A stretch of 21,863 nucleotides of DNA from a virus, in IMG/VR virus record IMGVR_UViG_3300042390_000049, positions 1 through 21,863 of that record, one strand, 5' to 3'. The stretch's first letter is position 1. Each line of letters begins with the position of its first letter. The notes under the pieces are model-generated. The model was not told where the DNA came from. It saw nothing but the letters and a program-made list of their open reading frames with translations, and did not search any database. The position numbers and the translations under genes are program-made. This document shows positions 4,683-17,613 of the stretch, in pieces.

Positions 4683-5594
4683 TTATGCTCTACGCATACA
4701 CGTAACCTCTGCAACAGCACGCCAATTGCTAGGCATGCTCTTCTTCAAGTCTGCTATTTTTAGTACTGTACGCAATGACAGTTCACGCAGCTTCTTCTTG
4801 TTGTCATCCACAAAGTCAATCAACACTTCCTTCTCAAGGTCCGTGAACTCGTAGTCGTCCAGCATGCCGCACTCAGTAACCACTTGCTTGATGCGCAAGA
4901 TCTTCTCACGCTCTGTGTCAATGGTCAAGTCCAAGTAGTGGCAACGGCTCTCAAGTGCTTCCAAGTGATCACGTAGCTTCTTGCTCTTGACATTGTCAAA
5001 CTTGATGTTGGTGATGAAGATTGCACCGCCCTGGAACTCGAATGAGTTGGGCACACCTTCTGAACGCAGGAGTCTGCTGTCTGTGTTCCAGTGGATTGTA
5101 CGCTTCTTACTGCTGTCCAGTGCTGCCTTGAGAATGTTCAAGCTCAGGTCATCTAACAGTACTGAGTCACAGTCATCAAACACTAGAATACACTTCTTGT
5201 CTGAGAACTCGTAGAGCTTCTTGTACAAGCCAATGGCACTCATAGCACCCTTGACCACTTCGTACTTTTTCAGCTTTGAGTCGTTGGCAACGTTAGCAAA
5301 CACATCGTGACGGCTCAATACAGCTTCTACACCAAAGCTCTTGCCTACGCCTGGGGGACCTGTTACGATCATAGCACGTACATCACCCTTCTTGACAGCA
5401 CGGGTCATGTCGTCCAGGATAGTAAAGCGGCTACGCAGACGCTCCATGATCTCTTCATCTGTTACACCTTTGAGCTCACGCTCTTTGGCCTTGATTGCAT
5501 CAGTGTCAATGCCAAAACTGACAACTGATTCCTTGCTGGCTTTCTTCATGTTAGAAACCGTCTCCAAATTTAGTACTTTATAGCCTTTAGTCAT
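4683..5594 (-). CDS. AAA+ ATPase of unknown role
   Basis: This 303-residue protein is an AAA+ P-loop ATPase. It has Walker A GPPGVGKS (about 79-86), a Walker B strand ILVFDDCDS (about 136-144) and an asparagine-bearing sensor-1 strand in GAIFITNIKF. It does not look like the T4 clamp loader gp44 or the helicase, so its substrate is unknown; a role in phage DNA metabolism or assembly is a guess. The ATG at 5594 is chosen because GGAGCGAG precedes it closely; an in-frame TTG at 5606 lacks a ribosome site. Only 1 of 17 isoleucine codons is AUA. It is the last gene of the minus-strand block and has its own promoter at 5627-5655. Confidence 0.85.
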   Translation of the reverse strand: MTKGYKVLNLETVSNMKKASKESVVSFGIDTDAIKAKERELKGVTDEEIMERLRSRFTILDDMTRAVKKGDVRAMIVTGPPGVGKSFGVEAVLSRHDVFANVANDSKLKKYEVVKGAMSAIGLYKKLYEFSDKKCILVFDDCDSVLLDDLSLNILKAALDSSKKRTIHWNTDSRLLRSEGVPNSFEFQGGAIFITNIKFDNVKSKKLRDHLEALESRCHYLDLTIDTEREKILRIKQVVTECGMLDDYEFTDLEKEVLIDFVDDNKKKLRELSLRTVLKIADLKKSMPSNWRAVAEVTCMRRA

Positions 5595-5626
5595 TGCTCG
5601 CTCCAATGTTGTTTAAGTAAGTGTAT

Positions 5627-9196: not shown

Positions 9197-9459
9197 CCAA
9201 CTTTTTGTTGTATTTTTACAACATTTTTTGAACGAATCTTTGGATTCTTTTCAGTGCCAAACTCTTTATCCACATAGAACTGAATCAGTTCCCTTTGGAT
9301 CTGTGTGATCAAATCACCGTGATCATCGTTAACTACGAAGCGGACTGGGCAACGACCCCACGCACCCGACTTATTGAACTCAGCGAACCATTGACGATGA
9401 TCTCTGTTCTTAGCATCAAATACGACCCAAGGTCTACCATATAAAGATAGTCTGCTCAT
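9193..9459 (-). CDS. Unknown protein, 88 aa
   Basis: The start is placed at the ATG at 9459, with AGGAG nine bases upstream; an in-frame TTG at 9468 lacks support. The protein has RPWVVFDAKNRDHRQWFAEF, WGRCPVRFVVNDDHGDLI and a basic C-terminus (KNPKIRSKNVVKIQQK). No family is recognised. It overlaps the upstream 40-residue gene as ATGA, so it is the last member of a six-gene transcript started at 10791-10819. Confidence 0.75.
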   Translation of the reverse strand: MSRLSLYGRPWVVFDAKNRDHRQWFAEFNKSGAWGRCPVRFVVNDDHGDLITQIQRELIQFYVDKEFGTEKNPKIRSKNVVKIQQKVG

Positions 9460-15718: not shown

Positions 15719-16045
15719 TTACAAGTATTGATCATTCAACTCTGGCTCAAACAACTTGACCAGCTCACGCTCGTAAGCATAAGCCTCCTTGCGACCACGC
15801 ACAATGGCAATGATCTCGTGAGTCCAGTTCATAGCCAATCCACCTGACTTCAAGTAGATGTACAAGGCCCACAGTCTGTTTTCGTTGACTGCACGGCTCT
15901 TGTGCTTGCGCCATCTCTCTGCAACAACCTTGTTGGCATTTGGCAAGCTCTTACGTGTCAAGCCAATGTAGCTATCACCACGCTCGCTAGTCATAGCGTA
16001 GATGATGTAGTTGCAATCTGTACGTGGTGTTCTGCGTGTCTTCAT
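15719..16045 (-). CDS. GIY-YIG family nuclease, probably from a leaderless mRNA
   Basis: From the ATG at 16045 the protein has 108 residues. YIIY (13-16) and SYIG (25-28) are the GIY-YIG strands, ERWRKHKS supplies the arginine/histidine region, and YERELVK (91-97) holds the conserved glutamate. This is the catalytic layout of GIY-YIG endonucleases such as phage homing or repair nucleases. It has no additional DNA-binding domain, so it is the minimal type. The ATG is six bases after the -10 box (16057-16052), at the expected transcription start, and has no ribosome site. A longer frame from 16114 would cross the promoter and is rejected. Confidence 0.82.
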   Translation of the reverse strand: MKTRRTPRTDCNYIIYAMTSERGDSYIGLTRKSLPNANKVVAERWRKHKSRAVNENRLWALYIYLKSGGLAMNWTHEIIAIVRGRKEAYAYERELVKLFEPELNDQYL

Positions 16046-16051
16046 GTTAGT

Positions 16052-16080
16052 ATTATACAATGATCTAGCCAAACTGTCAA
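16052..16080 (-). promoter_or_regulatory. Sigma70-type promoter giving a leaderless GIY-YIG mRNA
   Basis: TTGACA (16080-16075), 17-base spacer and TATAAT (16057-16052). Transcription at the usual 7 bases past the -10 box would start on the A of the ATG at 16045. Confidence 0.9.
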
Positions 16081-16095
16081 CCGGCCCCGCACTCG

Positions 16096-16117
16096 GCTGT
16101 GGCGTAAAAGCCACAGC
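16096..16117. repeat. 8-bp hairpin between transcription units
   Basis: GCTGTGGC (16096-16103) pairs with GCCACAGC (16110-16117) across a 6-base loop. It lies after the 16134-16277 gene and before the GIY-YIG promoter, where it could end or protect the upstream transcript. No T-run is present on the minus strand. Confidence 0.6.
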
Positions 16118-16292: not shown

Positions 16293-16565
16293 TTAAACAA
16301 ATTCAATATTATCTGTACGCAATTGCTTTTTAGCTTGCGATAATACATATGCAGTATCTGCTTGTAATGTCTCGTAATTAATATCTCCGCTTACATAATT
16401 ACATTGCTTTTGTGTAGGGAATATATGCACAACTTCTCCATTATCTTTTATTTTTTTATGCACATTAAATGCGATAATGATTTTATAAGTTTCTTTATTT
16501 TTTACATAGATTAATTTTGCTTTTGCAACTTGTGCAAAAATTGCTTGTTTATATACTGTAGACAT
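16293..16565 (-). CDS. AT-rich basic protein, 90 aa
   Basis: The protein MSTVYKQAIFAQVAKAKLIY... is basic, with KNKETYKIIIAFNVHKKIKDNGEVVHIFP in the middle (strand-rich) and a helical C-terminus (TAYVLSQAKKQLRTDN). No family is recognised. The gene and its partner are clearly richer in A and T than their neighbours, suggesting a different origin. AAGGAGCGAACT precedes the ATG, so the gene uses the same leader style as the block. Promoter at 16592-16620. It is the first gene of the block next to the DnaA-box region. Confidence 0.78.
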   Translation of the reverse strand: MSTVYKQAIFAQVAKAKLIYVKNKETYKIIIAFNVHKKIKDNGEVVHIFPTQKQCNYVSGDINYETLQADTAYVLSQAKKQLRTDNIEFV

Positions 16566-16591: not shown

Positions 16592-16620
16592 ATTATAGCA
16601 GAGAGGGTCCAAAACGTCAA
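16592..16620 (-). promoter_or_regulatory. Sigma70-type promoter for the AT-rich gene pair
   Basis: TTGACG (16620-16615), 17-base spacer and TATAAT (16597-16592). It points away from the plus-strand promoter 36 bases further on. Confidence 0.88.
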
Positions 16621-16656: not shown

Positions 16657-16685
16657 TTGACGCCCCGCCCAAAACGTGCTATAAT
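16657..16685 (+). promoter_or_regulatory. Plus-strand sigma70-type promoter toward the DnaA boxes
   Basis: TTGACG (16657-16662), 17-base spacer and TATAAT (16680-16685). It is the only strong plus-strand promoter in the window. The transcript would begin at about 16692 and run through the DnaA boxes; the sequence AAAACGTGC before the -10 box also occurs in the promoter at 13364-13392. Confidence 0.85.
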
Positions 16686-16691
16686 AATCGC

Positions 16692-16796
16692 ATGTTCGAA
16701 CATAGTGGGGGTGGACGGCGACAGCGCCTAGCGTTTCAGCTGTGGATAAAAGGTGTACAACCTGTGGATAACTTTTGGCCTGTGGATAAGCTGTGA
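16692..16796 (+). CDS. Possible 34-codon leaderless frame through the DnaA boxes
   Basis: An ATG at 16692 lies exactly six bases after the plus-strand -10 box, the same geometry as the GIY-YIG gene. The frame encodes 34 residues, from MFEHSGGGRRQRLAFQLW to a TGA at 16794-16796, and covers three DnaA boxes. It is short and has no known motif. The transcript could instead be a replication primer or regulatory RNA. I report it as tentative. Confidence 0.25.
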   Translation: MFEHSGGGRRQRLAFQLWIKGVQPVDNFWPVDKL

Positions 16797-16824
16797 ATAG
16801 TCTATTTCGCTGAAGTTATCCACA
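16741..16824. promoter_or_regulatory. DnaA-box cluster: candidate replication origin or DnaA-titration site
   Basis: Four perfect 9-bp DnaA boxes (TTATCCACA or its complement) lie at 16741-16749, 16763-16771, 16781-16789 (plus-strand TGTGGATAA) and 16816-16824 (opposite orientation). A degenerate TGTGAATAG is at 16792-16800. Four exact copies in 84 bases cannot be chance. Host DnaA would bind here. Whether this opens DNA for phage replication, attracts DnaA away from the host, or regulates the nearby promoters cannot be told from sequence. Confidence 0.85.
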
Positions 16825-16882
16825 GGTTATTAACAGTGTTGTAGTATAACAACAGAGCCAAAAAAACCGGTTGACACTAGGG

Positions 16883-17089
16883 TTATTCCGAATCTTCCTC
16901 GCCAAAATCTATATAGTATGTGATACTAGGCAGTGGTTCCAGGATCCAATCCCCTGCTGATTCTATATTATCAAATATATCAATGTCACATCTGCCTCGA
17001 TTATATTTGAAACAGTGCAGTCTATTAAGATCGTCACGACTGACACTGACTGCATGAGTACGAAACCGTATATGTCCAAGATATTCCAT
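16883..17089 (-). CDS. Unknown protein, 68 aa
   Basis: The ATG at 17089 is chosen because AAAGG stands seven bases upstream; a GTG at 17095 is an alternative. The protein starts MEYLGHIRFRTHAVSVSRDD and has a polar middle (LHCFKYNRGRCDIDIF). It ends in an acidic tail (YYIDFGEEDSE). Its AUA use resembles the flanking regions rather than the early block, so the codon boundary lies in the DnaA-box region. No clear TTGACA/TATAAT promoter precedes it, though a TATACT lies just upstream. Function unknown. Confidence 0.7.
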   Translation of the reverse strand: MEYLGHIRFRTHAVSVSRDDLNRLHCFKYNRGRCDIDIFDNIESAGDWILEPLPSITYYIDFGEEDSE

Positions 17090-17251: not shown

Positions 17252-17291
17252 AAAAAGTGTCAAAAAGTGTGAAAAAGTGCAATAAAGTGTG
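17252..17291 (+). repeat. Tandem 10-bp repeats AAAAAGTGTN, four units (iteron-like)
   Basis: Units start at 17252, 17262, 17272 and 17282: AAAAAGTGTC, AAAAAGTGTG, AAAAAGTGCA and ATAAAGTGTG. The period is exactly 10 bases, about one helical turn, so every A-tract faces the same side of DNA. Such phasing favours DNA bending or cooperative protein binding, as in replication iterons. Confidence 0.75.
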
Positions 17292-17546: not shown

Positions 17547-17613
17547 GCGCAGCGGGGCCTGTGCATATATAGGCTTATACGCTCGTTTTACTTGCAGAAG
17601 CGCAGCGGGGCCT
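17547..17613. repeat. Direct repeat GCGCAGCGGGGCCT
   Basis: Identical 14-mers at 17547-17560 and 17600-17613, each followed by a TATATA-rich stretch and ACGCT(C/T)G. A shorter relative, CGGGGCCTTATTG, overlaps the stop of the 17931-18107 gene. Confidence 0.7.

Follow-up and report, generated by a model that had tools for sequence, protein, structure and literature searches.

We put at roughly one in two the probability that a non-coding module in this phage DNA, in which phased DnaA boxes follow a host-type promoter, is a transcription-activated, host-DnaA-assisted early replication origin of a jumbo T4-like phage lineage. The window (the whole 21,863-nt stretch analyzed) is a fragment of a jumbo T4-like phage. 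Its primase and DnaB-like (gp41-type) helicase genes lie at 455–2861, and the helicase shares ~50% identity with its counterparts in Pseudomonas phage PA5oct and related phages. PA5oct has two DnaA boxes, which are scattered, and none of the cultured relatives carries the 90-aa gene found left of the module, the 70-aa gene, or the module's 29-nt element. The minus strand of the window also encodes an AAA+ ATPase of phrog_1250 (unknown function; 4683–5606) that weakly resembles clamp and helicase loaders, and, 0.6 kb left of the module, a GIY-YIG domain protein (15719–16114; Pfam E = 2.8e-5) that is possibly a homing endonuclease.

Perfect TTATCCACA boxes occur five times in the window, four in a cluster and one as a lone copy at 9266, whereas dinucleotide shuffles predict 0.19±0.44 for the whole window and none of 100 shuffles reached five. 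The cluster has been selected, and chance is rejected as its source. As in other DnaA-site clusters, several TTWTNCACA 9-mers fall within a short non-coding stretch, above chance. All four clustered boxes reported by the first-pass annotation are confirmed (~0.2 expected in the window), and the degenerate fifth copy that it mentioned is CTATTCACA, one of three partners located 11 bp from perfect boxes (Table 1). The same annotation placed the cluster between two divergent promoters, which is incorrect: the boxes lie downstream of the rightward promoter, inside its predicted transcript. Beyond this placement, it had missed the near-invariant start element, the 11-bp phasing, and the boxless relatives that keep the element.

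Table 1. Features of the module in the window; offsets are counted from the predicted start of the rightward transcript.
Feature	Position	Strand	Remarks
90-aa gene	16293–16565	-	Left of the module; would be driven by the leftward promoter
Leftward sigma70 promoter, TTGACG-17-TATAAT	16592–16620	-	Would drive the 90-aa gene
Rightward sigma70 promoter, TTGACG-17-TATAAT	16657–16685	+	Predicted start ~16692
Initial-transcribed element CATGTTCGAACATAGTGGGGGTGGACGGC, ~29 nt	16691–16719	+	Palindrome ATGTTCGAACAT plus G-rich block
Perfect DnaA box 1	16741–16749	-	+49
Degenerate partner TTGTACACC, 6/9	16752–16760	-	11 bp from boxes 1 and 2
16-bp perfect inverted repeat	16759–16828	.	Arms 16759–16774 and 16813–16828, made of boxes 2 and 4
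Perfect DnaA box 2	16763–16771	-	+71
Perfect DnaA box 3	16781–16789	-	+89
Degenerate partner CTATTCACA, 7/9	16792–16800	-	11 bp from box 3
Perfect DnaA box 4	16816–16824	+	+124
Degenerate partner TTATTAACA, 7/9	16827–16835	+	11 bp from box 4
Direct repeat array, 10-bp-spaced, (A)AAAAGTGT(G/C), iteron-like	17252–17291	.	About +560

The rightward promoter is predicted to start a non-coding RNA whose first ~29 nt constitute the near-invariant element. A consensus sigma70 promoter was detected at 28 of 28 loci, boxless ones included; among the 13 relatives checked, the rightward promoter always precedes the element by 6 nt (by 5 nt in a single case), and the divergent leftward promoter is present in 11. 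In relatives found by protein homology, whose spacers have diverged, the boxes invariably come after a perfect or near-perfect sigma70 promoter and the element, and the element is identical or carries one mismatch (L209), the exception being L204 with five mismatches. A scan with the element alone yielded 10 contigs and a looser scan 29 viral contigs, but invariance at the positions fixed by the scan patterns is partly a pattern effect, so the clean evidence consists of the protein-homology set and two scans that used the boxes only. These box-only scans recovered the element independently in L079, L258, L219, L260, L222, and L227; six other contigs with the box core lack it, and the proteins checked there were helicase, primase, and other mobile-element types. 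That the element was met together with boxes from the protein side and in box-only scans alike favors an origin.

Two translational explanations of the element were rejected. For a leaderless micro-ORF (MFEHSGGGRR), the ATG is replaced by CTG in L272 and L283, the downstream peptides are unrelated, and the changes are nearly all non-synonymous. For the G-rich block as a Shine-Dalgarno sequence, judged by eye, no start codon lies at the proper distance, and GGGGA variants break the pairing. A search for known RNA families was likewise negative, with only tRNAs passing in Rfam. Bacterial contamination or a captured host oriC was also rejected: the element occurs in none of 84,980 prokaryote genomes scanned, and phage homologues flank the loci or share their contigs.

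Fourteen homologues of the 90-aa gene were found in viral contigs, and those at least 66% identical have, except for L204, four to six perfect boxes within 3 kb upstream. When near-identical contigs were merged, 21 distinct element-bearing loci remained, 15 with box clusters (2–6 perfect copies each) and six without. Identity between relatives is 78–98% in the boxes versus 43–93% in the spacers, with the boxes higher in nine of nine pairs. The absence of boxes from close relatives would have counted against the first-pass annotation, but they recur; because they are kept in 15 of the 21 loci, above the spacers, a DnaA-related function is well supported, with the three roles that it listed (origin, sink, or switch) as candidates. 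Helicase-homologue loci in general have 19 boxes in 1 Mb and no cluster, indicating that the module is lineage-specific. A second pair of large viral contigs, L257 and L263 (88 and 133 kb), unrelated to the element-bearing ones, has a common DnaA-box layout without the element, consisting of an inverted pair and, about 1.7 kb from it, two or three further boxes. A search for the host through phage contigs within bacterial assemblies found nothing. A search of nine phage records turned up no phage-encoded DnaA gene, which would leave the host protein as the ligand and is in line with a host-assisted origin.

Perfect and one-mismatch boxes lie at +48 to +270 after the predicted start. At all 15 boxed loci the first box falls at +48–50, +70–71, or +82 (4–6 modulo 11), and across 99 boxes the phase strength is greatest at 11.0 bp (R = 0.56, versus 0.07 at 12). 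L079, L220, and L227 have a hairpin of the GTTAGT...AACTAAC type between the element and the boxes, and their first pair is displaced by two turns of the helix. Same-strand neighbors are 11 or 22 bp apart in 22 of 32 cases, a count drawn from related and hence not independent loci; partner positions peak at exactly ±11 and ±22, and the ±11 peak persists with imperfect partners only. At every boxed locus other than the window, one or more pairs at 11/12 bp are made up of boxes with no more than one mismatch each; the window's perfect boxes instead have partners matching 6/9–7/9 located 11 bp away. The 11/22-bp spacing corresponds to “double DnaA boxes” 2–3 bp apart, the arrangement of pairs that E. 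coli DnaA prefers (PMC11317965). Box mismatches fall at positions 1, 3, and 5 in 30 of 33 cases, nearly the positions at which variation is known to be tolerated (TTWTNCACA). The 11/12-bp spacing, the pattern of mismatches, and the conservation of the boxes together suggest that DnaA binds them. That otherwise diverged relatives retain double boxes at a fixed helical distance from a conserved promoter implies that contact of DnaA with the transcription complex is under selection.

Such contact between DnaA and the start complex, suggested by the fixed start-to-box phase, fits an origin or a transcription switch better than a sink. A sink would be a datA-like decoy whose double boxes capture or inactivate host DnaA, halting host chromosome initiation and freeing nucleotides for the phage. 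The box numbers resemble those of datA. Like the module, datA and DARS of E. coli are places in non-coding DNA where double or high-affinity DnaA boxes cluster; they are chromosomal and IHF/Fis dependent and, unlike the module, have no phased transcription start. The high affinity of double boxes, the multiplication of boxes that phage copy number would bring, and the absence of a phage DnaA gene from the nine records are all compatible with a decoy. We nevertheless consider it distinctly unlikely, as it would need neither a fixed helical phase to the start nor a near-invariant leader, and the boxes are not spread: in the 383-kb relative, six of seven perfect boxes lie within 130 bp and a single one lies outside the module, with 5.8 expected genome-wide. 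Moreover, a lone infecting genome adds only 2–6 perfect boxes to the hundreds of sites on the chromosome (E. coli; PMC12371093). The first and last 2.7 kb of this relative (L228–L247, IMGVR_UViG_3300042868_005134, 383,411 bases; module near 86.8 kb) are 83–87% identical, which suggests that two strains were assembled into one circularly permuted genome.

Six distinct loci keep the promoter and the element without boxes: L269, L270, L271, L275 (with L278 and L280), L277, and L225. Most of them have one or two stem-loops containing GGTTGACA in place of the boxes, and in five of the six the element ends in GGACGTGGA; L276 has an element with this ending, yet carries ten boxes, all in one orientation. 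The stem-loop, AACC-GGTTGACA(N)-GGTT, also occurs in the window (16864–16885), is found in L275, L271, L277, and L225, and is doubled in several boxless relatives; its stem letters vary between copies with pairing retained, and the GGTTGACA loop is constant. The retention of the element at boxless loci indicates that these phages can lose the DnaA cassette or exchange it and that the element does something in its own right; with six of 21 loci in this state, DnaA is not essential to the element's function.

Farther downstream, the 10-bp-spaced array of the window has four units (AAAAAGTGTC AAAAAGTGTG AAAAAGTGCA ATAAAGTGTG), and a similarly spaced AAAAGTGTGA-like array lies at +547 to +696 in nine of 11 relatives, among them the two boxless relatives checked. 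These repeats are possibly iterons for some phage protein. In relatives the array is followed by a conserved block and then by GCAGCGGGGCCT repeats, which occur two to three times in most relatives with enough sequence and, in the window, at 17549–17560 and 17602–17613 within AT-rich, TATATAC-rich non-coding DNA. Iteron plasmid origins (P1, RK2, F) likewise combine non-coding DNA that contains perfect TTATCCACA boxes with neighboring direct repeats, but they need a plasmid Rep protein, and none was identified at the module.

The inverted boxes might also be the hairpin arms of a structured non-coding RNA, with the match to the DnaA box incidental. The window transcript does fold better than shuffles (z = −2.84), a result of the 16-bp inverted repeat. 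We regard this explanation as highly improbable: the copies return to the DnaA consensus and show no compensated drift, the ten boxes of L276 all point one way and could not pair with one another, and 11-bp phasing is a property of DNA.

A transcription switch, in which downstream-bound DnaA would activate, pause, or block the rightward RNA or convergent leftward transcription and thereby time early genes, would explain why the boxes lie within the predicted transcript in fixed helical phase to its start, and the promoter and element are constant even at boxless loci. Activation and repression by DnaA are both known, and the protein may make contact with RNA polymerase (PMC8203912). There is little downstream to switch, however: no rightward gene follows the promoter for about 1 kb, and terminator-like hairpins in L218 and L221 indicate that the predicted transcript may end near the boxes there. 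The act of transcription itself would then have to matter, which leads back to an origin, and we view a switch as rather unlikely.

For an early origin, we envision that host sigma70 RNA polymerase would start at the rightward promoter and make a short non-coding RNA led by the near-invariant element, while host DnaA would fill the phased double boxes on the same helix face as the start complex. The duplex could then be opened by DnaA touching RNA polymerase, by an R-loop formed by the G-rich leader, or by both, and the phage's own T4-type primase and helicase would load on it. Two features of oriE-type origins of T4 are present, namely a promoter aimed across the site (28/28 loci; transcript predicted) and even direct repeats (17252–17291 in the window; 9/11 relatives), the unit length of which differs from that of oriE. 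The GC-skew switch of oriC-type origins, which the first-pass annotation suggested looking for, is absent from the module in the one 383-kb relative, which displays no origin signature there and in which fourfold-site skew follows gene strand. The AT-rich unwinding element of oriC-type and oriF/oriG-type origins is not seen either, as no consistent low-stability dip lies beside the boxes in 11 relatives. Because both the skew switch and a conserved AT-rich unwinding element are missing, origin activity, like transcription, DnaA binding, and strand opening, is something we infer from the sequence. That the module represents a new class of phage origin, in which host DnaA in helical register with host RNA polymerase at the near-invariant start would begin the replication of jumbo phages with otherwise T4-type replication genes, and in which the DnaA cassette is exchangeable for GGTTGACA stem-loops in sister phages, is a tentative proposal to which we give less than even odds.

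The module resembles both lambda pR/pO-ori-lambda and T4 oriE, its closest precedents, while being homologous to neither, and the likeness in layout favors an origin. In lambda, the origin region is transcribed by the polymerase of the host, and DnaA boxes are found there on the downstream side of a promoter; when DnaA binds close to ori, transcriptional activation is stimulated, apparently through the beta subunit of RNA polymerase (PMC3985674, PMC8203912). Lambda, however, is an unrelated temperate phage; it has iterons and few DnaA sites and initiates with O and P proteins of its own, and no near-invariant leader element is known in it. T4 oriE combines an early host-type promoter with evenly spaced iterons, and initiation at oriF/oriG is R-loop primed (PMC3016281); the module shares with T4 the type of primase and helicase as well as the early promoter and even repeats. 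The differences are that DnaA goes unmentioned in the T4 review (PMC3016281), that the repeat unit is 12 nt in oriE versus 10 bp in the module, and that T4 has nothing like the 29-nt leader, whereas the module has no AT-rich unwinding element.

The boxed and boxless variants of this one module provide a clean natural system for studying cooperation between transcription and DnaA at origins. Replication that does without the host initiator has its textbook example in T4-like phages, and the same variants would allow one to ask whether large phages borrow the initiator of their host or disarm it.
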